A DNA stretch of 40,035 nucleotides from Candidatus Adlerbacteria bacterium (GTDB taxonomy: Bacteria; Patescibacteriota; Minisyncoccia; Phycocordibacterales; SBAW01). The notes under the pieces are model-generated. The model worked only from the letters and a program-made list of their open reading frames with translations. It made no database searches and had not been told where the DNA came from. Positions within the stretch are counted from its first letter, which is position 1; each line of letters begins with the position of its first letter. The position numbers were made by a program, and so were the translations under genes. The stretch covers positions 1-40,035 of the forward strand of contig CAIRHB010000042.1 in NCBI GenBank assembly GCA_903878285.1, given 5' to 3'. Below, piece after piece: positions 932 through 37,628 of the stretch.

Positions 932-981
932 CTTCGCGCTTTTTTGTGTCGAAATGCAAAACTGGCAGTACTATAGAGAAT

Positions 982-3621: not shown

Positions 3622-3645
3622 TAACGAGCAACATCCTGAACATAT

Positions 3646-3951
3646 ATGGACAAAGAAACACGGGGGAAGATGGTCGAGGAGTGGGGGTTGGCAGGGTTTT
3701 CGCAGGAGGAGCAGGATGAATTTATCGACAAGATCGGGCAGGCGCTGTATCAGAGCGTCGTGATGCGCGCAACAGACGAGATGTCTGACGAGCAGCAGGA
3801 TATCTTTGAGACATTTCTCGAGCAGGCGGGCGAGAAGGCCGACCTGTTTACCGTGCTCGACTACTTGCACACTAACGTGCAAGGGTTTGACGACATGCTT
3901 GCCGAAGAGACAGAAAAGTTGAAGAAGGAATTGCTCGCAGCAGCGGCGTAA
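3646..3951 (+). CDS. Small acidic DUF5663-like protein
   Basis: 101 aa, GLAGFSQEEQDEFIDKIGQALYQSVVMRATDEMSDEQQDIFETFLE resembles the DUF5663 pattern. Confidence 0.6.
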   Translation: MDKETRGKMVEEWGLAGFSQEEQDEFIDKIGQALYQSVVMRATDEMSDEQQDIFETFLEQAGEKADLFTVLDYLHTNVQGFDDMLAEETEKLKKELLAAAA

Positions 3952-3995
3952 CACGCAGTAGAGGAGAACAGAACGAAGAGTGGTATAGTGCCTAC

Positions 3996-6026
3996 ATGTC
4001 GCATACGGATAGGTTGAACCCTGCGCAGCGGGAGGCGGTGCTGTGTACCGAAGGGCCACTGTTGGTGCTCGCGGGGGCGGGGGCGGGCAAGACGCGCGTG
4101 ATCGCGCATCGCATTTTGGAGATCGTACAGCGCGGCACCGAGCCGGAGCATGTCCTCGCGATTACCTTTACCAACAAAGCAGCGGGCGAGATGCGCGAGC
4201 GCGTGGTTGGGCTGCTACGCGAGCAGGGCGCACTGCCTCCCGATGCGACCTCGCACTCGCGCCACGCACAAAAATCAATGCCAGGGTTTTTTGGTCGAGC
4301 GGGGGAGCCGTTTGTATCCACCTTTCACTCGCTCGGGCTGTTGGTACTCAAAGAAAACTATAAAGAGCTGGGGTATAAGCGCACGCCTGCTATATACGAC
4401 CGCACCGACTCAATGCGCGAGATTAAAGCGGCAATGAAGCAACTCGGCATCGAGGATATGGAACCAAGGACTGTCCTTGGCGTGATATCCAAGACAAAAG
4501 GGCAGGGGATTGCATTGGAAGAGTTTATCGAAAAGGGCGAGAACTTTCGCGACCGCGCGGTCGCCTCGGTGTGGAACCTCTACGACCAAGCGCTGCGAAA
4601 AGACGCAGCGGTCGACTTTGACGATCTGCTGCTGCGCTCGATGCGCTTTTTGGAGATCAACGCCGAGGCACGGGTGCGCTACCAAGCCCGTTGGACACAT
4701 ATCCATATCGACGAGTACCAAGACACCAACCGCGTGCAAGCGCAGATGGCACACCTACTGGTCGGCCCCGCGCGCAACATCTGCGCGGTCGGCGACATCG
4801 ACCAAACCATCTACGGCTGGCGCGGCGCCGAGATCGCCAACATAATCCAGTTTGAGCGGACATATCCGGGCGCCAAGGTGGTGCTGCTTGAGGAAAACTA
4901 TCGCTCGACGCAAAAAATCCTCGACGCGGCAAACACGGTGATTGCTAAAAACCCCAACCGCCCCGAAAAAAATCTCTTTACTAAAAACAGTGAGGGCGAG
5001 CAGATCGGCATCTATCAAGCCTTCGACGAAACCGACGAGGCAGGATTTATCGCGCGCAAAATCGGCGAGCTACTGCGCGATGGGCGCGGCGCGGATGGAA
5101 AGAAGTTGCAGCCGCGCGACTTCGCGGTGCTCTACCGAGCAAACTTCCAGTCGCGAGCGATTGAGGAGCAGCTACTCGCCGCAGGCGTGCCGTACCAAGT
5201 GCTCGGCACGCGCTTTTTCGAACGTAAAGAGGTCAAAGACACGCTGTCATTTATCCGCGCAGCACTCCTCGACACACCCGCCGATATCCACCGCGTGACA
5301 CAGGTGCTGCCAGGCATCGGCAAAGTCACTGCACTAAAGATCCTTGCTGGACAGGAAGACACACTGCGTGGCGCGATCGCGCAAAAAGTGCAGGCAATGC
5401 GCACACTCTTGGCACGCATCCGCGAGAAAACAAGCATGCTGCCGCCGTCGCAGTTGATTCAGTTTATCGCCACCGAGTCGGGGATGGAAAAATTATTCAA
5501 AGAAGACAAACTCGAAGGAGCAGAGCGGCTCGAGAACCTCCGCGAGCTTGGGGCATTGGCGGCGCGGTATGATGCACTTCCTACGTACATCGCCGATGAT
5601 GAGACACGCCCCGCGCTGGATGCCTTTATGGAGTCGGCGGCGCTCGCGAGCGACCAGGATGAGCTGAAAGATGAGGCGAACGCGGTGCGGCTGATGACCA
5701 TCCACGCATCCAAAGGGCTCGAGTTCCCCATCGTGTTTATTACTGGGTTCGAGGAAGGACTCTTCCCCTACGAGCGCGACTACACATCGTCGGACTCCTC
5801 TGGTTCGGGGCAGAGAAGCGGCAAGGATGACCAGGAAGAAGAGCGGCGGCTGTGCTACGTGGCGATCACGCGCGCACGCGAAAAAGTGTTCCTCACGTTT
5901 GCGTCCTACCGCACGATCTTTGGATCTAAAAATGCGACTATCCGCTCGCAGTTTATTGGCGACATCCCCGAACATCTGCTGGAGTGGGAATCGCCCGAGC
6001 GACTCGGAAAAACCATCTATTTGTAA
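3996..6026 (+). CDS. pcrA: ATP-dependent DNA helicase, UvrD/PcrA family
   Basis: LNPAQREAV, LAGAGAGKTRVIAHRI (Walker A), IHIDEYQDTNRVQ, VGDIDQTIYGWRGA, ENYRSTQKIL, MTIHASKGLEFPIVFITGFEEGLFPY, RRLCYVAITRARE. Confidence 0.95.
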   Translation: MSHTDRLNPAQREAVLCTEGPLLVLAGAGAGKTRVIAHRILEIVQRGTEPEHVLAITFTNKAAGEMRERVVGLLREQGALPPDATSHSRHAQKSMPGFFGRAGEPFVSTFHSLGLLVLKENYKELGYKRTPAIYDRTDSMREIKAAMKQLGIEDMEPRTVLGVISKTKGQGIALEEFIEKGENFRDRAVASVWNLYDQALRKDAAVDFDDLLLRSMRFLEINAEARVRYQARWTHIHIDEYQDTNRVQAQMAHLLVGPARNICAVGDIDQTIYGWRGAEIANIIQFERTYPGAKVVLLEENYRSTQKILDAANTVIAKNPNRPEKNLFTKNSEGEQIGIYQAFDETDEAGFIARKIGELLRDGRGADGKKLQPRDFAVLYRANFQSRAIEEQLLAAGVPYQVLGTRFFERKEVKDTLSFIRAALLDTPADIHRVTQVLPGIGKVTALKILAGQEDTLRGAIAQKVQAMRTLLARIREKTSMLPPSQLIQFIATESGMEKLFKEDKLEGAERLENLRELGALAARYDALPTYIADDETRPALDAFMESAALASDQDELKDEANAVRLMTIHASKGLEFPIVFITGFEEGLFPYERDYTSSDSSGSGQRSGKDDQEEERRLCYVAITRAREKVFLTFASYRTIFGSKNATIRSQFIGDIPEHLLEWESPERLGKTIYL

Positions 6027-6063: not shown

Positions 6064-6093
6064 CTTGACAAAAAACTGATATTGGTACTAAAT
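6064..6093 (+). promoter_or_regulatory. Candidate sigma70-type promoter of the lipoprotein gene
   Basis: TTGACA followed about 17 nt later by a TACTAAAT-like -10. Confidence 0.45.
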
Positions 6094-6171
6094 AGTGGCA
6101 GATAGTCCCTCCCTTAAAAGGTGCGAGAGGGGGACGCCTAAGTTGAAAAAGCACCACAAAGGGGGCTAAAA

Positions 6172-6399
6172 ATGTTTAATAAGATGCTCGGGGCAATCGC
6201 TCTGCTTGGGCTGCTGACCACAAGCAGCCTGTCGCTCACCGGGTGCGGCACAGTGGCCGACCCGACAGCATGGTACGGGCTCGAGCTACAGCATGCCTTC
6301 AAAGAAGGCGCACGAGGCTCGGATGAGCGTATGAGCGGGTACGCGACGGCTGCGCAACGGGGCATTAATGAGGGTTTTGCCCTGAGCGCCCAGAAGTAA
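6172..6399 (+). CDS. Small lipoprotein
   Basis: 75 aa; signal peptide MFNKMLGAIALLGLLTTSSLSLTGC with lipobox LTGC; purine-rich GGGGG upstream of ATG. Confidence 0.75.
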   Translation: MFNKMLGAIALLGLLTTSSLSLTGCGTVADPTAWYGLELQHAFKEGARGSDERMSGYATAAQRGINEGFALSAQK

Positions 6400-7720: not shown

Positions 7721-7750
7721 AGTATATACTAGAAAAACGTGCGGTATACT
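7721..7750. promoter_or_regulatory. Divergent promoter region
   Basis: Palindrome AGTATATACT 7721-7730 (TATACT on the - strand 8 nt from ATG 7712) and TATACT 7745-7750 on the + strand 7 nt from ATG 7758. Confidence 0.55.
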
Positions 7751-13829: not shown

Positions 13830-13847
13830 TCTGCGGTATACTAGGGA

Positions 13848-14309
13848 GTGATGCAGTACCAAGTCCCTCAATTTATCGAGGTCGAAGATAAAATATTTGG
13901 GCCGCTGACGCTCAAACAGTTTATCTATGTCGCGGGTGGTGGTGGTTTGTGCCTCGCGATCTATACCCTGCTCCCACTGTATCTCGCGATCCCGCTCTCG
14001 TTGCCAGTTGCGATATTTTCGCTCGCGCTCGCATTCTACCAGATAAACGGTCGGCCGTTTATCATCGCGATGGAGCACGCGGTCGGCTACTTTTTTGGCA
14101 CAAAGCTCTACCTCTGGAAGCAGCGCGCGCCCGACATGCCGAGCATACAATCTCAAGCCGATGCAGCCTCTAGGACAGCAACATCGGAGGCACATCTCGG
14201 GCTCACGGTGCCAAAACTCTCCAACAGCAAACTGAAGGATCTGTCCTGGTCGCTCAACATTAAAGATCGGCAAAACGCTGGCAGCAACGGCCCCGAGTTC
14301 CAAATCTAA
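13848..14309 (+). CDS. PrgI-family membrane protein
   Basis: MQYQVPQFIEVEDKIFGPLTLKQFIYVAGGGGLCLAIY matches the PrgI family pattern seen next to VirB4; GTG 13848 or ATG 13851 start. Confidence 0.85.
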   Translation: MMQYQVPQFIEVEDKIFGPLTLKQFIYVAGGGGLCLAIYTLLPLYLAIPLSLPVAIFSLALAFYQINGRPFIIAMEHAVGYFFGTKLYLWKQRAPDMPSIQSQADAASRTATSEAHLGLTVPKLSNSKLKDLSWSLNIKDRQNAGSNGPEFQI

Positions 14310-14988: not shown

Positions 14989-16854
14989 ATGGGACTTCTC
15001 GACTTTATTAAAAAAGACAGCTCGGCAAACGTCGCTTCGCTGACTCCGATCTTGCCTGAGCAGATCTACAAGCAGGGCGTCCTCGAGCTGCAAGATGTGA
15101 TCGCCCCCTCGGCGCTCAAGATCACGCCGCGCGAGATCAACCTCGGCGACAAGATTGCGCGCACCTTCTTTGTGATGTCCTACCCGCGCACGCTGACCGA
15201 CTCGTGGTTTTCGCCCATTATCAACCTCGACCGTGTGCTCGATGTGTCCATTTATATCCAACCAATCGACTCTGCCGAAATTCTCAAGAAGTTTCAAAAA
15301 AAGGTCGCCGAGATTGAGTCACAGATTATGACGCGCGAGCAAAAAGGTCTCGTGCGCGACCCGATGCTCGACACCGCCTACAAAGACCTCGAGAACCTGC
15401 GCGACCAACTGCAGCAGGCGCAGGAAAAACTCTTCGACGTCGGCGTCTATATTTCCATCTACGGCTCGACCGTCGAAGAACTCGACAAAGCCGAGTCGGA
15501 GATTAAGTCGATGCTCGAGTCGCGCCTTATCTACGTCAAGCCAGCGCTCTTCCAACAGGAGCAGGGGTTCAAGAGCGTCCTGCCGCTCGGACACGACGAG
15601 TTGGAGGTATACTCCAAGCTCAATTCGTCGCCGTTGTCGTCGATCTTCCCGTTTGTCTCCTTCGACCTCACGTCGGACAAGGGCATCCTCTATGGCGTCA
15701 ACCGACACAACGCCTCGTTGATCCTCTTTGACCGCTTTAGTTTGGAAAACTACAACTCGGTGATTTTTGCCAAATCTGGTTCGGGCAAGTCCTACACCAC
15801 CAAGCTGGAAATATTGCGCACACTGATGTTCGACACCGAGGTGATCGTTATCGACCCCGAGCGCGAGTACGAGTTCTTGGCACAGACCGTGGGTGGGCGC
15901 TATTTTACTATCTCGCTCAATTCCGAGCATCACATCAACCCGTTTGACTTGGCACCACCACGCGAGGACGAAAACCCAGCCGACGTGCTGCGCTCGAACA
16001 TCGTCTCGCTCGTCGGGCTCTTTCGGCTGATGCTTGGAGGGTTAACCCCCGAGGAGGATGCCATCATCGACAAGGCGATTACCGAGACCTACGCGCTCAA
16101 GGACATCACCATTGACAGCAACTTTGCCGAAATCGAACCGCCGCTGCTGTCGGACTTCGAGATGGTGCTGGCGGGGATGGAGGGCTCGGAGTCTTTAGTG
16201 CAGCGTATCTCCAAGTACACTAAGGGCACCTGGTCGGGTTTTATTAACCAACCGACCAATGTTGATGTCAACAAAAAGTTTGTGGTGTTTTCGGTGCGCG
16301 ACATGGAGGACGACCTCAAGCCCGTCGCGATGTACCTGATCACCCACTATATTTGGAACAATGTGCGCAAAGTACTCAAAAAACGCCTGCTCGTTATCGA
16401 CGAGGCGTGGTGGATGATGAAGTCGGATGACACGGCATCCTTTCTCTACGGGATGGCGAAGCGTGGCCGCAAGTACTACCTTGGGTTGGCGACCATCACC
16501 CAAGATGTCGACGACTTTCTCAAGTCGCCGTATGGGCTACCAATGATCACCAACTCATCAATCCAACTCCTGTTGAAGCAGTCGCCCACCTCGATTGATA
16601 ACCTGCAAAAGACGTTCAATCTCTCTGACGAAGAAAAGTACCTGCTGCTCGAGTCAGACGTGGGGGAGGGGATCTTCTTCGCAGGGCTCAAGCATGTGGC
16701 GATCAAGGTGATCGCCTCCTACACCGAGGATCAAATCATCACCTCGGACCCGAGCCAGGTGCTCGCTCTACGCCAGCAACGTGCTGACGCCAAAGAGATG
16801 GCAGAGAACGCAGTGCAAAACCCTCCCGAAAATCAAAACAACGCGGTACAATAG
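14989..16854 (+). CDS. virB4: VirB4-like type IV secretion ATPase
   Basis: FAKSGSGKSYTTKLEILR (Walker A), VIVIDPEREYEFLAQ, KKRLLVIDEAWWMMKSD (Walker B), YYLGLATITQDVDDFL. Confidence 0.95.
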   Translation: MGLLDFIKKDSSANVASLTPILPEQIYKQGVLELQDVIAPSALKITPREINLGDKIARTFFVMSYPRTLTDSWFSPIINLDRVLDVSIYIQPIDSAEILKKFQKKVAEIESQIMTREQKGLVRDPMLDTAYKDLENLRDQLQQAQEKLFDVGVYISIYGSTVEELDKAESEIKSMLESRLIYVKPALFQQEQGFKSVLPLGHDELEVYSKLNSSPLSSIFPFVSFDLTSDKGILYGVNRHNASLILFDRFSLENYNSVIFAKSGSGKSYTTKLEILRTLMFDTEVIVIDPEREYEFLAQTVGGRYFTISLNSEHHINPFDLAPPREDENPADVLRSNIVSLVGLFRLMLGGLTPEEDAIIDKAITETYALKDITIDSNFAEIEPPLLSDFEMVLAGMEGSESLVQRISKYTKGTWSGFINQPTNVDVNKKFVVFSVRDMEDDLKPVAMYLITHYIWNNVRKVLKKRLLVIDEAWWMMKSDDTASFLYGMAKRGRKYYLGLATITQDVDDFLKSPYGLPMITNSSIQLLLKQSPTSIDNLQKTFNLSDEEKYLLLESDVGEGIFFAGLKHVAIKVIASYTEDQIITSDPSQVLALRQQRADAKEMAENAVQNPPENQNNAVQ

Positions 16855-21044: not shown

Positions 21045-21501
21045 CAGCTGCCGCGTCGCGATAATGCAGCGTGATGTGACGCAATTTGCCCTCGCCCTGC
21101 GAGCGCGTCTCGATCTCCGGGTCGTTGGCAAACAGCTCGTGTATCACCAGCCGGTCGTAGGGAGACATCGGGTCCATATCAATATCGCGTTTGAACAGCC
21201 GCGCATGTTGTGCGAGCATCTGCGCCTCGACGCGCACTTTGTTGATCTGCCCCTCGTGATACCCGTTTATATCAACCAAAAAGTTCGCCGCCTCGACACC
21301 CTGTGTGTGTTCAACCATCCGCCGCACGATACTGTTGATCGCGCGCAGTGTGTCGCCATGCTCGCCGATGAGCATCTCGCTTTCGGGGGAGGTGACGGCG
21401 ACCACTGTGCGCCGCCCTGAGGTGACAGAGATACTTGCAACCGCGACACCGAGTTTGTTGAAAAAGGTTTGTACTACTGTGGTGAGAAATTCAGGTGACA
21501 T
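21034..21501 (-). CDS. jag: Jag/KhpB KH-R3H RNA-binding protein
   Basis: LIGEHGDTLRAINSIVRRMVE (KH), DINGYHEGQINKVRVEAQMLA, MSPYDRLVIHELFANDPEIETRSQGEGKLRHITLHY (R3H); position next to yidC. Confidence 0.9.
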   Translation of the reverse strand: MSPEFLTTVVQTFFNKLGVAVASISVTSGRRTVVAVTSPESEMLIGEHGDTLRAINSIVRRMVEHTQGVEAANFLVDINGYHEGQINKVRVEAQMLAQHARLFKRDIDMDPMSPYDRLVIHELFANDPEIETRSQGEGKLRHITLHYRDAAAATV

Positions 21502-21570
21502 GCTCCCACAATACTCCAACAGGGGAGCCCGGCGCAACTAGACAGCTTACCGTGGAATGTTTTGGACTCA

Positions 21571-22332: not shown

Positions 22333-22650
22333 CTAGTGTACCGCAGATGGCAGCAACTGACCAAGCTCAGCGCGAAACGCTGGTGTTAAAGGTTCTGCTG
22401 GCACCTTGTGGACAAATACAATCGCAAGCCCTGTGCCCGAGAGGGGAGCGAGCGCTCGGTAGATTGCGCGGCGCAAGCGGTTTCTATCGACGGCTTTCTT
22501 TGCTACCAACTTTGGCACCACCACCGAGACTCGCAGTGGTGTTGTGGTCGAAATCAGCTTCATCGACAAGCAGTTTCCACGGCGTCCGCGGCCACGCTTG
22601 AGCACCTCACGTACCTCGCTTGCGACGAGACGTTGTCGCTTGGGGAGCAT
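22333..22650 (-). CDS. rnpA: Ribonuclease P protein component
   Basis: MLPKRQRLVASEVREVLKRGRG...VSVVVPKLVAKKAVDRNRLRRAIYRAL; between rpmH and yidC. Confidence 0.93.
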   Translation of the reverse strand: MLPKRQRLVASEVREVLKRGRGRRGNCLSMKLISTTTPLRVSVVVPKLVAKKAVDRNRLRRAIYRALAPLSGTGLAIVFVHKVPAEPLTPAFRAELGQLLPSAVH

Positions 22651-22659
22651 AGAGGCGTA

Positions 22660-22794
22660 TTATACCGCGAGTTTGGCACGACCTTTACGGCGGCGGCGCA
22701 GCAGAGTCTTCTTGCCGCCCACGGTGGCAGTACGCACAAGAAACCCGTGCGTCTTGGCGCGCTTGCGCTTTTTTGGCTGGTAGGTTTGCGACAT
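22660..22794 (-). CDS. rpmH: 50S ribosomal protein L34 (absent from the supplied ORF track, 44 aa)
   Basis: Reverse-complement translation [44 protein letters not shown]. Confidence 0.97.
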
Positions 22795-22899
22795 GTCTCA
22801 TACTATAGCCCATCTCGCGAATCTTCACAACCGGCCATGCCGATGTGGCTCTTTTGACGGCAAGGGTAGGGTCGCGTATCCTTACCGGTACCACTCACT

Positions 22900-24237
22900 A
22901 TGACTACCACCAAAGAACTCTGGGAAAATGCGCTGGTTGAGTTAGCACTCACCATATCGAAACCCAATTTCAACACGTGGTTTAAAGAGACACACATTGT
23001 GCGCGTCGAAGATGGCACCGTCTACCTTGGTGTACCGAGCCAGTTTGCGCGCGACTGGTTGTCGACCAAATTTCATAAAGATATTTTGCGTTCGTTGCGC
23101 GGATTATCCGATAGTGTGCGCTCGATCGAGTACATTATCTCTCGCGGACAAAAGAAGTTGGACGAGACACGGCACGTGCCCGCGGCTCCGTCAGAGTTGC
23201 CGCTTGAAAGCGTCCACGCCAAGACGAATCTCAACCCACGCTTCACCTTCAATACTTTTGTGGTCGGGCCATTTAACGAGCTCGCGCATGCGGCAGCACA
23301 GGCGGTGATCCGCCGACCAGGGAGCGCCTACAACCCGCTGTTGATTTATGGCCCTACTGGGCTTGGGAAGACACATTTAGCGCAGGCGATTGGCAACCAT
23401 TTTCGCATCAATGCACCAGACAGAAAGATCCAATACGTCACGTCGGAGAAGTTTTCGATGGACTATGTGTCATCACTCCAAACAAACAAAGTGCAGAGCT
23501 TTAAAGAAAAGTATCGCCAGTACGAGCTGCTCATTATGGACGATGTGCAGTTTTTGGCACGTATGGAAAAAACAAAAGAAGAATTTTTTCATCTCTTTAA
23601 TTTTCTCCATGATGGAAATAAACAGTTGGTGTTTACCTCCGACCAGCACCCGAATGTGATTCAGAACATCGAGGATCGGCTTCAATCACGCTTTAGTGCT
23701 GGCATGATTGTGTCGGTGACACCCCCCGACCACGACTCGCGGCTGGCGATCGTGCGCTCCAAAGCGCTTGCACATGGAATGATCCTTGCCGACGATGTGC
23801 TCGAGTACCTCGCGACGACAGTCGAGGGGAACGTCCGCGAACTCGAAGGGGCACTTAACCTGCTACTCATCCAGTTTGAACTACGTGGTGGGCCAGTCAC
23901 CATTAACGATGCTAAAAATGTACTGCGTGGCGCGAGCGGTTCGACGAAAAAATCAATATCTGTGCAGGAGGTGGTAAAGATAATCACTAGTTTTTACGGC
24001 ATCGAGGAGGGGAGTATTTACGAAAAAACACGCCGCAAAGAGGTGGTACGCCCGCGCCAAGTGATCATGTTTCTCCTGCGTGAGGATTTTAAAATCTCCT
24101 TCCCAACTATCGGCGAGAAGCTCGGTGGCCGCGACCACACCACGGTCATCCACTCATGCGAAAAGATAAAAAGCGACCTCACCACCGACAGTATACTCTC
24201 CCAAGAACTCCACCAGATCCGTCTCATGTTGAAATGA
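22900..24237 (+). CDS. dnaA: Chromosomal replication initiator protein DnaA
   Basis: LNPRFTFNTFVVGPFNELAHAAA, GPTGLGKTHLAQAIGN, LIMDDVQFLA, VRELEGALNLL, RPRQVIMFLLRE, LGGRDHTTVIHSCEKI. Confidence 0.98.
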   Translation: MTTTKELWENALVELALTISKPNFNTWFKETHIVRVEDGTVYLGVPSQFARDWLSTKFHKDILRSLRGLSDSVRSIEYIISRGQKKLDETRHVPAAPSELPLESVHAKTNLNPRFTFNTFVVGPFNELAHAAAQAVIRRPGSAYNPLLIYGPTGLGKTHLAQAIGNHFRINAPDRKIQYVTSEKFSMDYVSSLQTNKVQSFKEKYRQYELLIMDDVQFLARMEKTKEEFFHLFNFLHDGNKQLVFTSDQHPNVIQNIEDRLQSRFSAGMIVSVTPPDHDSRLAIVRSKALAHGMILADDVLEYLATTVEGNVRELEGALNLLLIQFELRGGPVTINDAKNVLRGASGSTKKSISVQEVVKIITSFYGIEEGSIYEKTRRKEVVRPRQVIMFLLREDFKISFPTIGEKLGGRDHTTVIHSCEKIKSDLTTDSILSQELHQIRLMLK

Positions 24238-24461
24238 TGTGGATAATGGGTGGAGTAGTGCGTGGAGAGTAGGTGGAAAAAGCTTGGCAAAAAGAGTATA
24301 AGGAAGGGGTGCGGGCAGTTATCCCACCAACAGCCGGTGGTTATCAACAGGAAACATTCATCTCAAAAACAGGTTTCTGGATTGCTGCAGAAGGGTATTC
24401 ATGAGTTATCCACCGTATCCACAGCCTTAATAAGCGTAGTAGACTTTAAATATAAGAAGAT
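24238..24461. promoter_or_regulatory. oriC: Candidate oriC (dnaA-dnaN intergenic)
   Basis: Perfect box TGTGGATAA 24238-24246; TTATCAACA 24341-24349; adjacent TTATCCACC 24406-24414 and GTATCCACA 24415-24423; AT-rich tract before dnaN. Confidence 0.8.
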
Positions 24462-25559
24462 ATGAAATTCGAAACCAGCACAGAGGAGCTGTTGATAGCG
24501 GTAGCAACCGCGGGTAGATTTACCGAGAAACGAGCGAACCTCCCAGTACTCTCGAGTATCCTCCTGAGTGTTGAGGGGCACCGTCTACTTCTTCGTGCAA
24601 CAAACCTCGAGTGCGGTGTCGAGATATACATCCCTGCTAAGGTGTCTGCCGAGGGGGTGGTGGCGATTCCTTCGTCGGTGCTACTTGGATTTTTAACCAA
24701 TACACGCAGTAAGTCTGTATCTGTGTCGCTGGTTGGCGAGGTGTTGGTGGTGGAGACAGAGCGCGCTTCGGCGTCGATTAAGACTATTCCACACGACGAC
24801 TTTCCGATCTTGCCACGGGTGTCGGCTGAGCGGTCGTTTACGGTCAAAAGTGCCGATTTATCTCGAGCGATTCGCAGTGTTGCCTACTGTGCCTCAACTT
24901 CGGCAATTAAGCCCGAACTACAGAGTGTGTTGTTGTACAGCGAAGAGGGGAAGTGTACTGCTGTGGCGACGGACTCCTTCCGTCTCGCAGAAAAAACCGT
25001 ACCACTGCGCGGCGGCGGGAGCGTGCCGCAGCTCTTGGTGCCGGCGAGAAATGCAGCAGAGTTGATGCGCATTGTTGATACTGTAAAAGGTGATGTGGAA
25101 ATTTACTACAACGACAACCAGCTTTCAACCCAGGTTGAGGCTGTCTATTACACAAGCCGACTCATCGACGGTACCTTCCCAAATTATCGCCAGATTATTC
25201 CGAAAACCTTTTCGACCGAGGCGGTAGTGCTTCGCGAGGATGTAGCAACCGCGCTTAAATCACTTTCTATTTTTGCCGACAAATTCTCCCAAGTTTCGTT
25301 GTCGATTGAACCGACTAAAAAGGCGGTGTTGCTTTCGTCGCGCAACCCGGACATTGGCGAGCAAACTTCGAACATGCGCGCAACCGTCGTGGGCGACGGG
25401 CTCACTGTGTCGTTTAATGGGCGCTACCTTGCCGACAGTCTCCAGGCGATTTCTGGCGAGTCGGTGCGGCTCAGTAGTAACGGTGCAGGAAAGCCGATGC
25501 TCATCAAAGATGCTGCTGATGAATCCTTCTTCTATTTGGCAATGCCCATGAATCGGTAG
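24462..25559 (+). CDS. dnaN: DNA polymerase III beta subunit (sliding clamp)
   Basis: MKFETSTEELLIAVATAGRFTEKRANLPVLSSILL..., IDGTFPNYRQIIP, SFNGRYLADSLQAI, FFYLAMPMNR. Confidence 0.96.
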   Translation: MKFETSTEELLIAVATAGRFTEKRANLPVLSSILLSVEGHRLLLRATNLECGVEIYIPAKVSAEGVVAIPSSVLLGFLTNTRSKSVSVSLVGEVLVVETERASASIKTIPHDDFPILPRVSAERSFTVKSADLSRAIRSVAYCASTSAIKPELQSVLLYSEEGKCTAVATDSFRLAEKTVPLRGGGSVPQLLVPARNAAELMRIVDTVKGDVEIYYNDNQLSTQVEAVYYTSRLIDGTFPNYRQIIPKTFSTEAVVLREDVATALKSLSIFADKFSQVSLSIEPTKKAVLLSSRNPDIGEQTSNMRATVVGDGLTVSFNGRYLADSLQAISGESVRLSSNGAGKPMLIKDAADESFFYLAMPMNR

Positions 25560-25584: not shown

Positions 25585-27714
25585 CTACGAGCTCGTCTGA
25601 GACCAGTTGCGGACGGGGATGTCCCAGTACTGGAACTGCGGGTCAGCACCCGGATTAGCGGGCTGTGGGCCGTTTGGGTTGTTTTTATCAACCCAGTAGA
25701 GGATCTCATGCAGTTGACTATCAGATCCTGGTGTGTTCCATACACCACGGAGTACTGGTTTAAGGCCGCTTTCGTCCACCGTGCCACGCGTAAACGACTC
25801 AACCGGCGTCTTGGCGAGCGCATAGGTCATGAATTCGTGCCACATTGGGCCGACGATAAAGCCAGAGACTTTTTTAACCATCGGCGTGTTGTTGTTATTT
25901 CCTGCCCAGATACCCACAACAAGGTTTGGTGTGTAGCCAATCGTCCACGCGTCTTTGTAGTCGTTGGTGGTACCCGTTTTGACCGCGACATCGCGCCCGG
26001 GGAAGGTGAGCAGATCATTTTCGCCAAGTGGCGCTTTTGCTACTGGGTCGGAGAGAATGTCGTTTATCTCTTGCGCGACAGTTGTGGGAAGTACCTGGCT
26101 GCCAACAGGCTGAGTGTTGTCCTCGAGGACTTTGCCGTTTTCGTCGGTAATCTTGAGCACCGACACGGGAGACACGTGCACACCGTTTTGTGCGAACGCG
26201 CCGTACGCGCTGGTCATATCAAGCAGCGTTGTCTCACCGCCGCCGAGCACCAAAGTTAGTCCATACTGCGACGGATCACCGAGCGTCGAGATACCCATCG
26301 ACTTGGCGAGCTGGAGTGTATCTGCGATGCCTGCGAGGTACAGCACTTTAATCGACGGGATATTGATCGACTGAGCGATTGCGTCACGCAGCGTCATTGG
26401 GCCGCGAAACTTGCCATCATAGTTGACCGGCGAGTAGCAGGGGGGTGTATCGTTTGCGACGTCGCTCGCCGAGCAGGAGGTCGAGAACTGTGTTCGTACA
26501 TCAAATAGCACGGTGTCCGGCGTGTAGCCTTTCTCGAACGCTTCGGCATAGGCAAACGGTTTAAAGGTCGACCCTGGCTGTCGCCCTGCGAGCGTGACGT
26601 TAAAGTTGCCATCAATCGTGGTGTCGAAGTAGTTGCGGGAGCCAACCATCACAAGGATCTGTCCATTGGTCGGGTCGATAGCGATCATACCAGTGTTGGA
26701 GGCGTTAAACTGTGTTTGGTTGCTCGTGGCGTGTGCTTGCACGACCTGCTCTGCCTCTGCTTGCAGGTCGGCATCCAGCGAAGTGACTACACTCCACCCA
26801 CCTTGCTGTAGAACGTCAGGACCGTACTTATTTTCCAAATACTGCTCAACGTAGAAGACAAAGTGTGGTGCGGTAATCGAACTCGTGTTCGGGGTGAGAA
26901 AGGTCACTTTGGTTGCTTTCGCGGCGTCACGGTCTGTCGCGGTCAGGTAGCCGTGTGCGAACATCTTATCGAGCACGATATTCTTTCGTGTGTCGAGCTC
27001 TTTTGTGTGGTTGCCGTATGGTGAGTAGTATGTTGGTGCGTTGATAATCGAGGCAAGGTACGCCGCCTCGGGCACGGTCAGGTCGGATGCGTGGACACCA
27101 AAGAACGTCTCGGACGCTTCCTCGACGCCGTAGATGTTGCCCCCATAGGGGACTTGGTTGAGATAGAGCTCAAGAATCTGGTTCTTGGTAAGCACACGCT
27201 CGAGTTTAATCGCCAATACCCACTCTTCAATTTTTCGCGTGATTGTTTTGCTATTGGTGAGTAAGACATTTTTGACCACCTGTTGCGTGATAGTCGAGCC
27301 ACCTTGTGTTACTCCGCCTGGGGTAATGTCTGCAAGTATGGCGCGCAGAATTGCTTTGAAATCAACTCCACCATGTTGGTAGAAGTTAGGGTCTTCAATC
27401 GAAATCGTTGCGTGTTGGACGTTCTGTGATATTTCACTGAGTGGCACGACGGTGCGGCGTGTGCTGCTGTTGTTGAGGTCGTAGAGCAGCACGGTGCCGG
27501 TGCGGTCGTAGAGTTTGAGTGATTGATCAACTTTTCGGCTTTCGATCGACGACAGGTCGGGGATCTGGAGCGTTGATGCCCACACCGCGAGCCCACCGGT
27601 GGCAAGCAGCCCAAGCCCAATGAACCACAGCAGCAAGGTTTTAGTGTGACGGCCGATAAAATGCACAAAGCGAGTAAAAAGGCTTCGCGAACCGCGCTCG
27701 GAGGAGTATCTCAT
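25585..27714 (-). CDS. Bifunctional penicillin-binding protein 1A (GT51 + transpeptidase)
   Basis: ISIEDPNFYQHGGVDFKAI, TQGGSTITQQVVKN, KLERVLTKNQILELYLNQVPYG, GSTFKPF, SIN, AVKTGTTNDYKDAW. Confidence 0.95.
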   Translation of the reverse strand: MRYSSERGSRSLFTRFVHFIGRHTKTLLLWFIGLGLLATGGLAVWASTLQIPDLSSIESRKVDQSLKLYDRTGTVLLYDLNNSSTRRTVVPLSEISQNVQHATISIEDPNFYQHGGVDFKAILRAILADITPGGVTQGGSTITQQVVKNVLLTNSKTITRKIEEWVLAIKLERVLTKNQILELYLNQVPYGGNIYGVEEASETFFGVHASDLTVPEAAYLASIINAPTYYSPYGNHTKELDTRKNIVLDKMFAHGYLTATDRDAAKATKVTFLTPNTSSITAPHFVFYVEQYLENKYGPDVLQQGGWSVVTSLDADLQAEAEQVVQAHATSNQTQFNASNTGMIAIDPTNGQILVMVGSRNYFDTTIDGNFNVTLAGRQPGSTFKPFAYAEAFEKGYTPDTVLFDVRTQFSTSCSASDVANDTPPCYSPVNYDGKFRGPMTLRDAIAQSINIPSIKVLYLAGIADTLQLAKSMGISTLGDPSQYGLTLVLGGGETTLLDMTSAYGAFAQNGVHVSPVSVLKITDENGKVLEDNTQPVGSQVLPTTVAQEINDILSDPVAKAPLGENDLLTFPGRDVAVKTGTTNDYKDAWTIGYTPNLVVGIWAGNNNNTPMVKKVSGFIVGPMWHEFMTYALAKTPVESFTRGTVDESGLKPVLRGVWNTPGSDSQLHEILYWVDKNNPNGPQPANPGADPQFQYWDIPVRNWSQTSS

Positions 27715-27759
27715 GTGGCAATTCTACCACAGCGGCGTTTGTGTTACAGTGGTGTGTAT

Positions 27760-28986: not shown

Positions 28987-28987
28987 C

Positions 28988-29856: not shown

Positions 29857-30376
29857 TGGTGTAGACCTCGTTGACATCATCCTGCTCGTCGATTGCGTCG
29901 ACCAGTTCGGCGAGTTTCTCCAAGTCCTCGTCGGAGAGATCAACCGTGGTTGTTGCGGCAAGCTCGCCCTGTTCGTTTTTGGCAAATGCCCAAATCGCGG
30001 CGCCTGGGTTGGCGAGCGCGTAGCCATTTTTGCTCAGCAGGTGTTTGATCTCCTGCACAGTGCGGTTTCGATTATCGGTAAACGCCTCGATAATAATCGC
30101 TACGCCGCCCGGGCCGTATGCCTCGTAGGTAACTTGCTCGAGCTCTGCCCCCGCTTGCGACGCTTTGTCGACCGCGCGGTCGATATTATCCGCAGGCATG
30201 TTCTCGGCGCGTGCCTTCTCGATCGCAAGCCGGAGTCCTGGCGCGTTTCGATCACCCTTACTCTTCTTCGCTTCGACCGTGATATAGCGCACCAACTTTG
30301 AAAACACCTTGCTCTTCCTCGCGTCCGTCGACGCTTTCTTGTGTTTAATTTTACTCCATTTGCTATGTCCTGACAT
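29846..30376 (-). CDS. yebC: YebC/PmpR (TACO1) family protein, shortened form
   Basis: [28 protein letters not shown]..., [35 protein letters not shown], ending in [20 protein letters not shown]. Confidence 0.93.
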
Positions 30377-30386
30377 ATCCTCTAGA

Positions 30387-30740
30387 TTACTCGCCCTTTT
30401 GTGATTTTTCAAACCGTGCATCAATCCTGGCGGTTTTGTGTGCGAGTGCTTGGTTGATGTCGACACCCGCCTGCTGCGCCAAAAGGAGAGTGGTGATAAT
30501 CACATCCGCGCACTCGGCACCAATGTTCTCGACCGCTTCGTGCGCCGAGCTCGCGCCGTCCAATTTTTCCTGCCGTTGCAGACGCTCCGACGCAAGGATT
30601 GCCTCGGCGAGCTCGCCCACCTCCTCGGTCAACTTCGCCACTCTGCCAAACAGCCCCTCGCGCTTTGTCGCGACAGGGAAGTGCTTATTGAGCCGCCCGC
30701 TCTGCCGCTCGACCCAGTCAATCAGTTCTTGAGAAATCAT
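30387..30740 (-). CDS. MazG-like nucleotide pyrophosphohydrolase
   Basis: [18 protein letters not shown]...[42 protein letters not shown]. Confidence 0.85.
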
Positions 30741-30815
30741 AGCCAAAGTATAGCCGCAGTTTCGCACAAAAGAAAATCCTGCACAACGATCAATTTTTGG
30801 TGTAATGACAATGTG

Positions 30816-30843
30816 TTGACACATAATCAGAACACACTATACT
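30816..30843 (+). promoter_or_regulatory. Sigma70-type promoter of the TA operon
   Basis: TTGACA (30816-30821), 16-nt spacer, TATACT (30838-30843), 6 nt before ATG 30850. Confidence 0.75.
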
Positions 30844-30849: not shown

Positions 30850-31134
30850 ATGACCACAACTATTCAGGTGCGTATCGATGCAAAGACAAAAGCAAAAGCA
30901 AAGAAGGTGTTTGCTGGGATGGGGCTTGATGTATCAAGCGGCATCAAGGTGTATCTTAATCGCGTCGTCAAAGACCAGGCCATCCCGTTTGTGGTGCGCA
31001 CCGAAAACGGCTACACGCCCGAGCAGGAGCAGGAAATTATCCGCGAAACCGAATGGGCTAAAAAATACGCCAAACGGTATACAGATGTTGATGAGATAAT
31101 GGAAGAGTTTTTCGGCACGAAACAGAAGAAATAA
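30850..31134 (+). CDS. RelB/DinJ-family antitoxin
   Basis: TTTIQVRIDAKTKAKAKKVFAGMGLDVSSGIKVYLNRVVKDQAIPF. Confidence 0.88.
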   Translation: MTTTIQVRIDAKTKAKAKKVFAGMGLDVSSGIKVYLNRVVKDQAIPFVVRTENGYTPEQEQEIIRETEWAKKYAKRYTDVDEIMEEFFGTKQKK

Positions 31135-31448: not shown

Positions 31449-32525
31449 TTATAATAGGCGTTCGTTCAAATCCTCTGGTGGTTTTTTGCCGAGGTGGGTG
31501 TAGGCAGCGCGGGTGGCGACGCGGCCGCGGGGGGTGCGCTCGATGAGGCCGAGTTGCAGGAGAAAGGGCTCGTGGACTTCAGAGATGGTGTTTGGCTCTT
31601 CTGACAGCGCTGCGCCGAGCGCGGAGACGCCCGCGGGGCCGCCGTGAAAGCGCTCGATGATGGTGAGCAGGATGGCTCGGTCAACAGGGGTGAGGCCGAG
31701 ATGGTCGACCTCGAGCAGGCCAAGCGATGCATCGACCGCCTCTTTGGTGAGCGCGGTGCGCTTGAGCTGTGCCCAGTCGCGAGCGCGCTTGAGCAGGTAG
31801 TTGGCAGTGCGCGGGGTCGAGCGGCTGCGGCGGGCGATTTCGCGCACGCCGTCTGTCGCGGTCTCGATGCCAAGAATACGCGCCGAGCGCTCGACAATCT
31901 TCGCGATTTCGTCCTCGCTGTAGAACTCGAGTCGAAAGACGCCGCCAGAGAAGCGCGAGCGCAGCGGGGCGGATAGGTCGGCGACGCGCGTGGTTGCGGC
32001 AATCATAGTAAATGGTGGCAGCGGCAGGTCGAGCGTGCGCGCTGATGGGCCTTTGCCGATGATGATATTGAGCACTCCCGACTCCATTGCGGGGTAGAGC
32101 ACCTCCTCGATGCTGCGCGAAAGGCGATGGATTTCGTCGATAAAGAGGATATCACCCGGCTGCAGGTTAGTGAGGATCGCCGCGAGGTCGCCAACACGCT
32201 CGATGGCGGGGCCGGACGTCGCGCGGAGTGACCCGCCGAGTTCGTGAGCGATAAGGTGCGCGAGTGTGGTCTTGCCAAGCCCTGGCGGGCCATAAAAAAG
32301 GATGTGCTCAGGAGGGGATTGCCGCTCTTTGGCGGCGGTGATCAAAATATGCAGATTGTTTTTGATACTTTCTTGGCCGATGTACTCGTCCCACGACGCG
32401 GGTCGCAGGGTTTGATCTAAAAAAGCGTCGCCTCGTGTGCCAGCCGCTGGCGCATCGTCAAGAGCTGTTGTATCTGAAAGGTTTTCTGGTTCCTTGGGAG
32501 CTCGTTTTGGAAACGTATTTGACAT
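31449..32525 (-). CDS. ruvB: Holliday junction branch migration ATPase RuvB
   Basis: [83 protein letters not shown]. Confidence 0.97.
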
Positions 32526-32539
32526 ACAATCAATAGTAT

Positions 32540-32557
32540 GCTAACTTTTTTGTTAGC
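32540..32557. repeat. Perfect inverted repeat GCTAAC-TTTTTT-GTTAGC in the ruvB promoter region
   Basis: Direct reading; adjacent to -10-like TACTAT (32533-32538, - strand). Confidence 0.6.
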
Positions 32558-32563
32558 ACCGTC

Positions 32564-32822: not shown

Positions 32823-34505
32823 TTACACAGTCGCCTCGAGGTCGACCACGCGCTCAAGCTCGTCGAGCGAGGTGATACCGCGCAGCACTTTGATTACGCC
32901 ATCTTCCTGCATCGTCGGCACGCCCTGTGGCCGAGCGACAGCGGCAATCTCGTGCTCGCTCGGTTTGGTGCGCAGCACTTCTTCGATCGCTTTGTCCATA
33001 AAAATTGCTTCGTAGACGCCGATGCGCCCCTTGTAGCCGCGGCCGGTGCATGCGGGGCAGCCGCCCTCTTTGGCGACTGACAGTGTGTGCGTGTTCTCTG
33101 GCACGAGCGTGCGGTCGACGATCGTGCCGAGATGTCGGTCGATAATCGTTTGCTCTGTTGGTGTTGCCTCGCGCTCCTGCTTGCACTGCGTGCAGAGTTT
33201 GCGCACCAAGCGCTGCGCCATCGCACAACTGACTGCCGAGCTCAAGACCTTTTCGCTGATACCCATATCGATGAGTCGGGGGAAGGAGCCTGCCGCGTCG
33301 TTGGTGTGGAGTGTTGAGAACACAAGGTGCCCCGTGAGCGCGGCGTTAATCGCGGTCGTCGCCACCTCGCCGTCGCGGATTTCACCCACCATAATGATGT
33401 CTGGGTCCTGTCGCAACACCGAGCGCAAGCCTTCGGCGAAGGTATAGTTTTTCTTATCCACTTGTGTTTGCACAATGCCCGGGAGATGATACTCGACCGG
33501 GTCTTCGATGGTGATAATTTTCGTATCAGGGCTATTTACTTTACGCAAGAATGCGTAGAGCGTGGTGGTCTTTCCCGCTCCTGTGGGGCCGGTTGTCAGT
33601 ATCATGCCGTTTGGCTTGGCGATCTCTTTTTCGATCCGCTCGCGCAGTTTGGGCTCGAGGCCAAGCGACTCTAGCGGCACGGCAATCGACTCGGGGTTGA
33701 GAATGCGCATCACAAACGTCTCGGCGTAGTTGCCGGGGAGAATCGACGTGCGCAGCTCGAGCTCTTTACCTTTAATCTTGATGCTAAAACGGCCGTCCTG
33801 TGCCTCGTGTGTTACGTTAAGTTTAAGCCCCGAAAGCAGTTTGAGTCGTGACAACACCAAGTGGTAGGTTTCTTGATCAAACGTGAGTATGTCGATCAAC
33901 ACGCCGTCGAGCCGGTAGCGCAGGCGCACATCGGTCTCCTCTGCCTCAAGGTGGATGTCGGACGCGCCGGTCGACAGTCCTCCGGCGAGGATGATCTCGA
34001 GGATGCGGGTGATGCGGTACGCCTTTTTCATTGTGACCGCCTCATTGATAAGTGTGCCGATATCCTGCAAACTTTCGACCTTCTCGAGCAGATTCTCGAC
34101 CTCTTCGCCAGAGATCTCGAATACGCCCGCCTTGCTTTCCTTCGCGTAGGAAAGGTCGGCGTAGTGGTCGTAGGCGCGTTTGAGGCTTTCCTGCGAGGTG
34201 ATAAACATGGTCACGATATAGCCGCGCTCGGTGAGTTTTTGCACCATCTCGAGCACTTTCGGATTGCGCGGTGAGCGCGCAGCGACGCTCACTTTTTTTC
34301 CTACTTCGCCAAAGGCGACCATCTCAGCGTCGCGTGCATCCTTTTCGAGGATGAGTCGCAACGCTTCGACATTGACCGCGACAAGCGACAGGTCGACATA
34401 CTCGACGCCGTACTTGTGCGACAGCATCTGTGCCAACTCCTCCTCCTCGCGCTTCTTGAGAAAGTCGACACGCTTTTCTTGATCGCTATCATTAAACGTA
34501 ACCAT
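32823..34505 (-). CDS. pilB: GspE/PulE/PilB-family ATPase
   Basis: GPTGAGKTTTLYAFL, ITIEDPVEYHLPGIVQTQV, GLRSVLRQDPDIIMVGEIRDGEVATTAINAALTGHLVFSTLHTNDA, CTQC...CPAC zinc motif. Confidence 0.95.
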   Translation of the reverse strand: MVTFNDSDQEKRVDFLKKREEEELAQMLSHKYGVEYVDLSLVAVNVEALRLILEKDARDAEMVAFGEVGKKVSVAARSPRNPKVLEMVQKLTERGYIVTMFITSQESLKRAYDHYADLSYAKESKAGVFEISGEEVENLLEKVESLQDIGTLINEAVTMKKAYRITRILEIILAGGLSTGASDIHLEAEETDVRLRYRLDGVLIDILTFDQETYHLVLSRLKLLSGLKLNVTHEAQDGRFSIKIKGKELELRTSILPGNYAETFVMRILNPESIAVPLESLGLEPKLRERIEKEIAKPNGMILTTGPTGAGKTTTLYAFLRKVNSPDTKIITIEDPVEYHLPGIVQTQVDKKNYTFAEGLRSVLRQDPDIIMVGEIRDGEVATTAINAALTGHLVFSTLHTNDAAGSFPRLIDMGISEKVLSSAVSCAMAQRLVRKLCTQCKQEREATPTEQTIIDRHLGTIVDRTLVPENTHTLSVAKEGGCPACTGRGYKGRIGVYEAIFMDKAIEEVLRTKPSEHEIAAVARPQGVPTMQEDGVIKVLRGITSLDELERVVDLEATV

Positions 34506-34574
34506 ATGCGTTTGTGTACCTCTATTCTACAACGCTTTGCTTTTTTCTCGCACCGTTTGGTGTAGGATACTCGT

Positions 34575-35114
34575 ATGAAGCAAGAACAAAAGAATGAGCA
34601 AGCGCAACACATGCAAAAAATTGCACTCGCCGACCTATCGGCGTATGTGCAAAAACTCTTGCAGCTGCCCGTCTTTGTAATACAGACAGAACAGGCAGAT
34701 CAAAAAGATCACGCGCTGCTAATCACCTTGGTGGGTGACCTCGGCGCGGGCAAGACGACATTCGTGCAGGCGCTGGCTAAAGAACTCGGTGTCACCGAAT
34801 CGGTGTTGAGCCCCACTTATGTGATTATGAAATCCTATGACATTCCCGCAGCTAATCAAAATAGAAACACAGAGCAGACAATTAGTGCTCGCCGGTTTGC
34901 AAAACTAGTGCATATCGATTTGTATCGCCTCGACAAGCCCGAAGAACTTTCGGCGCTCAAGCTGGGCGCGGTGCTTGCCGACCCTGCTAACCTTGTGTGC
35001 ATCGAGTGGCCCGAGCGCGCCGGCACCCTCCTCCCGCGCCCCGACCTGCATCTCCACCTCTCCTCCGACGGCGCCAGCGAAGCCGAGCGGTTTGTCGAAA
35101 TCATCCAAGGGTAA
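34575..35114 (+). CDS. tsaE: tRNA threonylcarbamoyladenosine biosynthesis ATPase TsaE
   Basis: LVGDLGAGKTTFVQALAKELGVTESVLSPTYVIMKSY, HIDLYRL, CIEWPERAG. Confidence 0.92.
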   Translation: MKQEQKNEQAQHMQKIALADLSAYVQKLLQLPVFVIQTEQADQKDHALLITLVGDLGAGKTTFVQALAKELGVTESVLSPTYVIMKSYDIPAANQNRNTEQTISARRFAKLVHIDLYRLDKPEELSALKLGAVLADPANLVCIEWPERAGTLLPRPDLHLHLSSDGASEAERFVEIIQG

Positions 35115-35165
35115 CCCTTGGAAGCGTACGTGGCTACAGGGGCGGGAATGAGATAGAGTAGAGGT

Positions 35166-37628
35166 ATGGTGGATACTCCTAAGCGATTGGTGATCCTCGA
35201 CACGCATGCGATTTTGCATCGGGCGTATCATGCGCTGCCGGATCTGTCGTCGTCTAAGGGCGAGCCCACGGGCGCCTTGTTTGGCTTGGTGTCGATGCTG
35301 ACCAAAATTATCGCAGACCTCAAGCCCGACTATATCGTCGCGGCGTTTGACCTGCCCAAGCCGACGCACCGGCACATTGCCTACGAGGACTACAAAGCGC
35401 ATCGGGTCGCGGCGGACGACGCGCTGGTCGCGCAGATTATCCGCTCGCGCGACGTGCTCGATGCGTTTGGCATCCCGCGGTACGAGTGCGAGGGGTTTGA
35501 GGCAGATGACGTGATCGGCACGGTTGTTGAAAAATTGAAACATGCGCGTTCGACGACAACTAAGAAAAAAGAAATAGACAGTGCTGATCTTGTTGATGTG
35601 GTTATCGCGTCTGGCGACAACGACCTGCTGCAGTTGGTCGATGATGATCATGTGCGCGTGTTCACCTTTAAAAAAGGGTTGTCGGATACGGTGCTCTATG
35701 ACGAGGAGAAAGTAATCGAGAAGTACGGCTTTGGCCCCGCGCTTGTGCCAGACTTGAAGGGGATTATGGGCGACGCGAGCGACAATATTAAAGGCGTGCC
35801 GGGGGTTGGCGAGGGGAGCGCGCTCAAGCTGGTAAAAACATTTGGCTCGGTTGAGTCAATCTACGAGGCATTGAAGAAAAAAGGGGTCGAGGAGGTGGCA
35901 AAAGAGGCGGGGATACAAAAACGCTTCGCACAGCTGATGCTCGACCACGAAGAGGATGCGGCGTTTTCGAAATTGCTCGCGACTATTCGGCTCGATGCGC
36001 CGATCAACTTCGTGCTACCAGAAAAATCATGGAAGGACGGTGTCGACCGTGAGCGGCTGTATGCACTCTTAACTGAGTTCGACTTCCGCTCACTCATCAC
36101 TCGCGTGAAGGCGCTCTTTGGAGAATCGGGCGATGTTGCTGGTGGGAGCAGATCTAGTTCTGATGGGGCAGGTGGTGATACTCCGACAACCGACGGCTTG
36201 TTTGGCCCGAGCGAGGATGTGCCATCGGAGGAGCTGGCAGATGCGCTGCTCGCGGTGTGGGTGCTCGACTCCAACACGACGCAGCCAACCTTAGAGGATG
36301 TGTACCGCGTAGGCGGTGTGCGGACATTTGTCGACGCGCGAAAAAACCTGCTGGCGCAGATTAAAAAAGATGAGCTCTCGTTTGTGTACGAAAAAATTGA
36401 GTTGCCGCTGCGACCCATTTTGCGCCAGATGGAGCAGATGGGGATCAAGGTCGACCACGCATTTTTGCGCACCTTGTCGGGCGAATACACGGGCGAGCTA
36501 CATACTATCGCCAAGCGGATTTATGCTGCAGCGGGCGAGGAGTTTAATATCAATTCGCCTAAGCAGCTTGGCGAGGTGCTCTTCGACAAGCTGGGGCTCG
36601 GGGTGAAGAATCAAAAAAAGACTGCTGGCGGGCAGCGCACGACGCGCGAGTCGGAGCTCGAGAAGATGCGCGATCAGCATCCGATTATCGCTGACATTCT
36701 CGCGCATCGCGAGTTGCAAAAACTGCTCTCAACTTACATCGACACCATCCCCACCATGCTTGACGAGCGTAGCCGCTTGCACACCTCGTTTATCCAGACA
36801 GGCACCACCACTGGGCGATTGTCATCGCAGAATCCAAACTTACAAAATATTCCCATCAAAACCGACCTCGGCCGCGCGATACGTCGCGCGTTTGTGGCAG
36901 AAGAGGGGATGCGGCTGGTGTCGTTCGACTACTCGCAGCTCGAGCTGCGCATCGCGGCCTTTCTCTCGGGTGACGAAGCACTCAGCGAGATTTTTAAAAA
37001 CGGGCGCGATGTTCACGCAGAGGTGGCGGCGCGCGTCTTCGATGTGCGGGGCGAGGACGTGTCCTACGAGCAACGGCGACGCGCAAAAGTGATCAACTTC
37101 GGTATTCTCTATGGGATGGGAGTGAGCGCTTTACGCGAGCAACTTGGTACCACACGGGGCGAGGCGCAGGAGTTTTATGATCAATACTTCGCTGCGTTCC
37201 CGCGTCTTGCGGCTTATCTGGAGGAGGTGAAGGCGGATGCGACGCGCCGCGGGTATACCGAGACATACTTTGGGCGCCGTCGCTATGTTGCGGGTATCAA
37301 CTCGCCGATTCCGTACGTACGTGCTGCTGCTGAGCGTATGGCGATTAACGCGCCGGTGCAGGGCACCGAGGCGGATATGCTCAAGCTCGCGATGGTCGAT
37401 ATAGCGGCGTGGGTTGCTGCCGAGAATCTCGGCGACCGTGTGCGGATGTTGCTGCAGGTGCACGACGAGCTAGTGTTTGAGGTTGCAGAAAAAGAGATTG
37501 CATCTGCGGCAGAGAAAATACGTCAGGTGATGCAAGAGGTAATCCCGCTCATTGAGGCGCACAATATTCCCTTTTTGGTCGAGGGGAAGGTGGGCGGCAT
37601 CTGGGGCGAGATGGAAAAACTCGTATGA
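35166..37628 (+). CDS. polA: DNA polymerase I
   Basis: 5'-nuclease N-terminus (LVILDTHAILHRAYHAL, GDASDNIKGVPGVGEGSALKLV) and polymerase motifs (HTSFIQTGTTTGRLSSQNPNLQNIPI, FDYSQLELRIAA, RRRAKVINFGILYGM, LLQVHDELVFE). Confidence 0.96.
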   Translation: MVDTPKRLVILDTHAILHRAYHALPDLSSSKGEPTGALFGLVSMLTKIIADLKPDYIVAAFDLPKPTHRHIAYEDYKAHRVAADDALVAQIIRSRDVLDAFGIPRYECEGFEADDVIGTVVEKLKHARSTTTKKKEIDSADLVDVVIASGDNDLLQLVDDDHVRVFTFKKGLSDTVLYDEEKVIEKYGFGPALVPDLKGIMGDASDNIKGVPGVGEGSALKLVKTFGSVESIYEALKKKGVEEVAKEAGIQKRFAQLMLDHEEDAAFSKLLATIRLDAPINFVLPEKSWKDGVDRERLYALLTEFDFRSLITRVKALFGESGDVAGGSRSSSDGAGGDTPTTDGLFGPSEDVPSEELADALLAVWVLDSNTTQPTLEDVYRVGGVRTFVDARKNLLAQIKKDELSFVYEKIELPLRPILRQMEQMGIKVDHAFLRTLSGEYTGELHTIAKRIYAAAGEEFNINSPKQLGEVLFDKLGLGVKNQKKTAGGQRTTRESELEKMRDQHPIIADILAHRELQKLLSTYIDTIPTMLDERSRLHTSFIQTGTTTGRLSSQNPNLQNIPIKTDLGRAIRRAFVAEEGMRLVSFDYSQLELRIAAFLSGDEALSEIFKNGRDVHAEVAARVFDVRGEDVSYEQRRRAKVINFGILYGMGVSALREQLGTTRGEAQEFYDQYFAAFPRLAAYLEEVKADATRRGYTETYFGRRRYVAGINSPIPYVRAAAERMAINAPVQGTEADMLKLAMVDIAAWVAAENLGDRVRMLLQVHDELVFEVAEKEIASAAEKIRQVMQEVIPLIEAHNIPFLVEGKVGGIWGEMEKLV

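Follow-up and report, generated by a model that had tools for sequence, protein, structure and literature searches.

Why should a -10-like hexamer lie only a few nucleotides upstream of so many start codons on a single contig? The window analysed here, a stretch of 40,035 nucleotides that constitutes contig C42 of a Candidatus Adlerbacteria draft genome (G000; 930 kb, 44 contigs), raises this question, and the original prediction had answered it with leaderless mRNAs as the default for first genes.

Hexamers upstream of start codons

All 16 hexamers that had been put forward, with their spacings and start codons, match the window exactly; the gene names were checked by Pfam. On the forward strand these are TACTAT (969..974), 7 nt 5' of the ATG at 982 of a large protein with no Pfam match; TATAGT (3984..3989), 6 nt from the ATG at 3996 of a UvrD-type helicase; TATACT (7745..7750), 7 nt from ATG 7758; TATACT (13837..13842), within an operon, 8 nt from the ATG at 13851 and 5 nt from the GTG at 13848 of a PrgI-family gene; TACAAT (16847..16852), 8 nt from ATG 16861; TATACT (30838..30843), 6 nt from the ATG at 30850 of a RelB-type antitoxin and with TTGACA upstream; TAGGAT (34563..34568), 6 nt from the ATG at 34575 of TsaE; and TAGAGT (35154..35159), 6 nt from the ATG at 35166 of DNA polymerase I (PolA). 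The reverse strand carries TATACT (7721..7726), 8 nt from ATG 7712; TATTGT (21508..21513), 6 nt from the ATG at 21501 of an R3H/KH (KhpB-like) protein, a spacing that recurs in the related genome G023; TATAGT (22802..22807), 7 nt from the ATG at 22794 of rpmH (ribosomal protein L34); TAGAAT (27721..27726), 6 nt from the ATG at 27714 of a class A PBP; TAATCT (30384..30389), 7 nt from the ATG at 30376 of YebC; TATACT (30747..30752), 6 nt from the ATG at 30740 of a MazG-like protein; and TACTAT (32533..32538), 7 nt from the ATG at 32525 of RuvB. Another reverse-strand hexamer, TATAAT (22659..22664), 8 nt from ATG 22650, was missing from the original list. The spacing is not constant, as had been claimed, but peaks at a gap of 6 and spreads over 6-8.

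Other features of the window deserve mention. In the region 6065-6399 of the forward strand, a small lipoprotein-like ORF (ATG at 6172) has TTGACA at 6065 and a leader predicted at about 70 nt, which contains CCCUCCC and GAGAGGGGG, with AAGGGGG before the start; it is likely a leadered exception among the genes of the window. The reverse-strand rpmH adjoins dnaA (22900) and dnaN (24462), both on the forward strand, and the region 22333-25559 is likely that of the replication origin. An IS1595/ISXO2-type transposase (74-877, reverse strand) lies at the contig edge.

The analysis was extended to a sample of 242 kb out of the 930 kb (12 stretches plus the window), in which 194 genes were called de novo with a codon model. 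Start codons were picked on codon score alone, and thus the TANNNT motif had no influence on their choice. The same pipeline was applied to E. coli as a negative control and, as a positive one, to a plasmid of Deinococcus deserti, in which leaderless mRNAs are known to occur. The positional peak at -12 to -14 that the original prediction expected genome-wide is present in this sample: at gaps of 5, 6, 7, 8 and 9 nt the motif was counted 6, 25, 15, 12 and 6 times, against some 2.7 per position elsewhere. Of the 142 first-of-operon genes, 50 (35%; about 8 expected, P = 6e-26) have it ending 6-8 nt ahead of the start; other 3-nt windows hold it in 5.8% of cases, and internal in-frame ATGs are preceded by it in 1.9%. 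The window alone contributes 10 of 20 first genes, and with the window left out the signature is found in 40/122 (P = 2e-19). E. coli has it at 3 of 82 first genes and shows no peak, whereas the D. deserti plasmid has it at 13 of 81, with the peak at the same position as in G000. When nearby upstream ATGs were allowed, the proportion rose to 41% of the G000 first genes (E. coli: 12% against a 10% background). The leaderless promoter signal is therefore real, but with 35-41% of first genes the word 'default' was an overstatement.

The signature extends beyond this genome. Three further genomes of the genus show independent peaks (P = 9e-12, 1e-13 and 6e-20); in more distant members of the order (around 40% GC) a weak, wider peak covers gaps 6-10 (22% versus 12%, P = 2e-3). 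Members of other classes that retain the anti-Shine-Dalgarno (anti-SD) sequence have it as well (26% versus 11%, P = 1e-9).

The hexamers also have the surroundings of promoters. Upstream of 73 of them, TTGACA (at least 4 of 6 positions) was found 9 times at a spacer of 16 bp and 15 times at 17 bp, against 0-3 times at any other spacer, and a G occupies the extended -10 position, two bases before the hexamer (-14), in 63% of cases versus 24%. The commonest hexamer in G000 is TATACT. Genes with the signature start almost invariably with ATG (92/95, versus 188/226 without it; P = 4e-4), and where a gene has the signature, its orthologue within the genus has it too in 20 of 32 pairs, versus 10 of 47 (P = 3e-4). 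Upstream of tsaE the sequence has diverged, yet a -10 stays close to the ATG in four species (that of the window and three diverged relatives), and at ruvB the arrangement TAGCATASTAT-N7-ATG is largely conserved across the genus. The ruvB block TAGCATASTA (32530-32545, reverse strand; loci L244-L268), likewise conserved in the genus, is a near-palindrome, TAG-N4-CTA, that overlaps the -10 and could be an SOS-type operator. Together, the -35 boxes at 16-17 bp, the G at -14, the near-universal ATG and the conservation between orthologues identify the hexamers as promoter elements. In the standard sigma-70 promoter geometry a gap of 6 places the +1 on the A of the ATG, and it is from this position that we infer leaderlessness.

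Two other readings of the hexamers have to be weighed. The AT-rich hexamer might be an element of translation initiation on a leadered mRNA, Kozak-like or an A/U stretch bound by S1 as in the Bacteroidota, and no promoter at all. Inner-operon genes are indeed A-rich as well, from -5 to -11, and have a T at -1 in 70% of cases in G000 (17% in E. coli); some of them carry TANNNT at 6-8 nt without a -35 (4/44, 8/50 and 10/54, with no -35 enrichment there), and an S1-like protein of four-domain size is encoded. A translation element would, however, account poorly for the sharp peak at gap 6, for the spaced -35 boxes and the G at -14 of the first-gene hexamers, and for a G000 signature that is stronger in first than in inner genes (35% versus 11%), and we consider it unlikely. 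Alternatively, the promoters might be ordinary ones with very short leaders of some 3-10 nt, either because RNA polymerase starts further upstream or because start codons were misassigned. The choice of transcription start site does shift by a few nucleotides, and in the order outside the family of G000 gaps of 9 and 10 were counted often, 12 and 11 times. Against this, the peak of G000 and its congeners lies at gap 6, the very gap that is standard for a +1 on the A of the ATG, and the known leaderless D. deserti peaks at the same position, which makes short leaders very unlikely.

The 3' end of the 16S rRNA

The original prediction had also pointed to the anti-SD at the 3' end of the 16S rRNA, and here the outcome favours leaderless initiation. 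The 16S gene of G000 has kept an intact helix 45 with its GGAA loop, but GGAAUAAUUCAAUGA stands in the place of GGAUCACCUCCUUU and CCUCC is absent altogether. The same holds throughout the order: CCUCC is missing after helix 45 from every one of the 29 readable 16S genes that the genus, the family and the order of G000 provide, some of them on long contigs, and the new tail is itself conserved as GGAAYAWUUCAA. Of the class genomes sampled, 76 carry A or T at the position of the first C of CCUCC and 45 carry C, so that about two thirds are altered; one genome (G169) matches both forms, and the 45 include a few degraded ones. G169 has its own 16S without the anti-SD and a second, canonical 3' end of a different lineage (G169:C6:260-305, L080), which is probably located on a contaminating contig. 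In the rest of the phylum the altered form was found in a single genome of roughly 90, and the exact CACCUCC is present in 90 of the 240 sampled genomes of the phylum, nearly all of them outside the class. Intermediate tails occur as well (GGAACAUCUCCUUU, GGAUUUUCUCCUUU and GGAUUAUCUCUUUU). Database records with a tail of the G000 type belong mostly to the Parcubacteria group (Nomurabacteria, Taylorbacteria, Zambryskibacteria and others), of which the Wolfebacteria and Campbellbacteria are members too; this assigns G000 to the patescibacteria of that class.

Could the missing anti-SD be an artefact of assembly, binning or annotation, the real tail being GGAUCACCUCC? The 16S gene of G000 is found on a contig of only 4.5 kb in a draft genome. 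Nevertheless, in the 29 genomes of the order, long contigs included, helix 45 is intact and followed by the replaced tail, and such tails recur in many named Parcubacteria records, which leaves this explanation a next to negligible probability. The conservation of GGAAYAWUUCAA across the order could, on the other hand, mean that a new anti-SD has evolved, the altered tail pairing with a different motif upstream of the genes. In the G000 sample, gaps 2-13 show no enrichment of tail-complementary pentamers, either before first genes (15% versus 13%) or before inner genes (7% versus 7%). A new SD/anti-SD pair was rejected on this ground, and we regard it as extremely improbable.

The site of the former anti-SD may have acquired a structural role. 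Among 80 distinct tails of the class that lack the anti-SD, the arms of a small hairpin at this site (UUCA/UGAA, CUCA/UGAG, UUCC/GGAA, UCC/GGA) are matched better than in between-species shuffles (z = 5.6, 0/2000; relatedness uncontrolled). The arms thus appear to covary across the class, which we take as a lead. Within the order alone, whose tails are too uniform for this comparison, the corresponding value is z = 0.1, and a stable hairpin in the order's own tail was rejected in view of weak folding energies and this low variation. In the relatives that retain the anti-SD, CUCCUUUCUAGGGAG can pair with the trailer into a comparable hairpin.

Probable initiation without Shine-Dalgarno pairing

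The SD motifs GGAG/GAGG/AGGA precede 5% of all G000 starts, against a background of 5%, and the canonical SD pentamers precede 0-5%, at or below background in G000 as in the order; the control values are 44% of starts in E. coli and 36% in D. deserti. In the window, the claim that SD motifs are mostly absent from the listed starts holds on the whole, although GGAG/GAGG lies between hexamer and start codon in 4 of the 16 (13848, and 35166 on the forward strand, 21501 and 30376 on the reverse). Measured as excess over background, SD use comes to +1% for the genus and -1% for the remainder of the order; class members that retain an anti-SD reach +8.5%, anti-SD-bearing members of other classes +13.5%, and E. 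coli +42%. The rule 'no anti-SD, no SD' holds in the order but is broken by one family of the class (f60). In three of its genomes (G088, G134 and G113; loci L089, L281-L285, L088 and L280, 16S L330, L331 and L334) the one 16S gene lacks CCUCC, and still 14-22% of the starts carry SD motifs, many of them strong and of the AAGGAGG type. Either the anti-SD was lost very recently in these genomes or the motifs serve something else.

We consider it very probable that many operon-head mRNAs of G000 are leaderless, transcribed from housekeeping-sigma promoters placed on the start codons and translated without SD pairing, and that the anti-SD was lost after leaderless use had spread. The hexamers would be the -10 elements of ordinary housekeeping-sigma (sigma-70-type) promoters, with transcription starting at the A of the start codon or no more than about 2 nt away from it, which would leave many operon-head mRNAs leaderless. 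Ribosomes would recognize these by pairing of the 5'-terminal AUG with the initiator tRNA. SD pairing is unavailable in G000, since its 16S ends in h45-GGAAUAAUUCAAUGA and not in GGAUCACCUCCUUU. Inner-operon genes cannot be leaderless throughout; they would rely, equally without an SD, on their A-rich start context, often with a U just before the AUG; recognition via an AUG extended by this U is one possibility. As to the order of events, the leaderless signature is phylum-wide and the loss of the anti-SD narrower, a pattern that points to leaderless, SD-poor initiation as the earlier step and to decay of the anti-SD as the later one. The phylum would already have made common use of leaderless promoters at a time when its anti-SD was still intact; by relaxing the selection on the anti-SD, leaderless initiation then probably allowed its loss in the ancestor of the order.

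The complement of initiation-related proteins was inspected as well. All 21 of the relatives searched have initiation factor IF3, and they share the S1-like protein (in G000 about 386 aa, G000:C17:7578-8576). A few kb away lies a weak bS21-like ORF, below the cut-off (G000:C17:2282-2413); among the relatives searched, the bS21-like match is found mainly in the genus of G000. Era binds GAUCACCUCC of the 16S rRNA, and loss of this GTPase has been described for the CPR (PMC10582724). In line with this, Era is missing throughout the class, in members with and without the anti-SD alike; the sole match over the cut-off was a tandem GTPase, which is probably Der. Era as a switch for anti-SD loss was therefore rejected, its own loss being earlier than, or independent of, that of the anti-SD.

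Relation to known systems and implications

Leaderless transcription as such is known, as are scattered losses of the anti-SD. For 21.6% of bacterial species, up to 40% of transcripts are predicted to be leaderless (PMC9581028). Like G000, the leaderless bacteria (D. deserti, Mycobacterium; the leaderless bacterial group of GeneMarkS-2) have a -10 at 6-8 nt before the start; in D. deserti and Mycobacterium such genes likewise lack an SD, and leadered genes are mixed in. D. deserti differs in that it keeps its SD use (36% of starts versus about 5%), whereas in G000 the anti-SD is gone. Loss of CCUCC has been listed for 266 prokaryotes, one Wolfebacteria and one Campbellbacteria genome among them, and the category that is closest to G000 in lacking CCUCC after helix 45 and having very few SD motifs (category iv) comprises Weeksellaceae, haemotropic Mycoplasma, insect symbionts and a few genomes of Wolfebacteria, Campbellbacteria, Peribacter and SR1 (PMC10783764). 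The CPR cases in this category are isolated genomes, whereas the loss is uniform in the order of G000, affects about two thirds of the genomes of its class, shows graded intermediates and is linked to leaderless promoters. Flavobacterium johnsoniae, with the SD-independent initiation of the Bacteroidota type, is similarly SD-poor and A-rich before the AUG but keeps its anti-SD (PMC6847099). The conserved anti-SD, sequestered with bS21, that characterizes this type is not found in G000, where the anti-SD is absent and the bS21-like match is weak. In the open-access journal literature searched, we found no prior report of leaderless transcription in CPR or Parcubacteria, and no paper on an order-wide loss of the anti-SD or on its link with leaderless promoters in this group. 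The combination thus appears to be undescribed in that literature, which does not establish priority.

Few sequences of bacterial rRNA are as conserved as the anti-SD, and the case for stable life without it has been argued mostly from endosymbionts and Flavobacteria. We give about even weight to a fuller account, in which the order and most of the class would have abandoned SD pairing permanently, the operon heads being leaderless and the inner genes recognized via the A-rich, U-before-AUG context, while the anti-SD site would have become a small hairpin kept for its structure and not its sequence, and living intermediates (CCUCC, UCUCC, UCUCU, none) would mark the route. In practical terms, gene finders that expect an SD will misplace starts in such genomes. 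More generally, here is a species-rich and environmentally widespread order without an anti-SD; its relatives represent every stage of the loss, and those that keep the anti-SD already make frequent use of leaderless promoters. This makes the question whether leaderless initiation came first, and freed the anti-SD to decay, directly testable.
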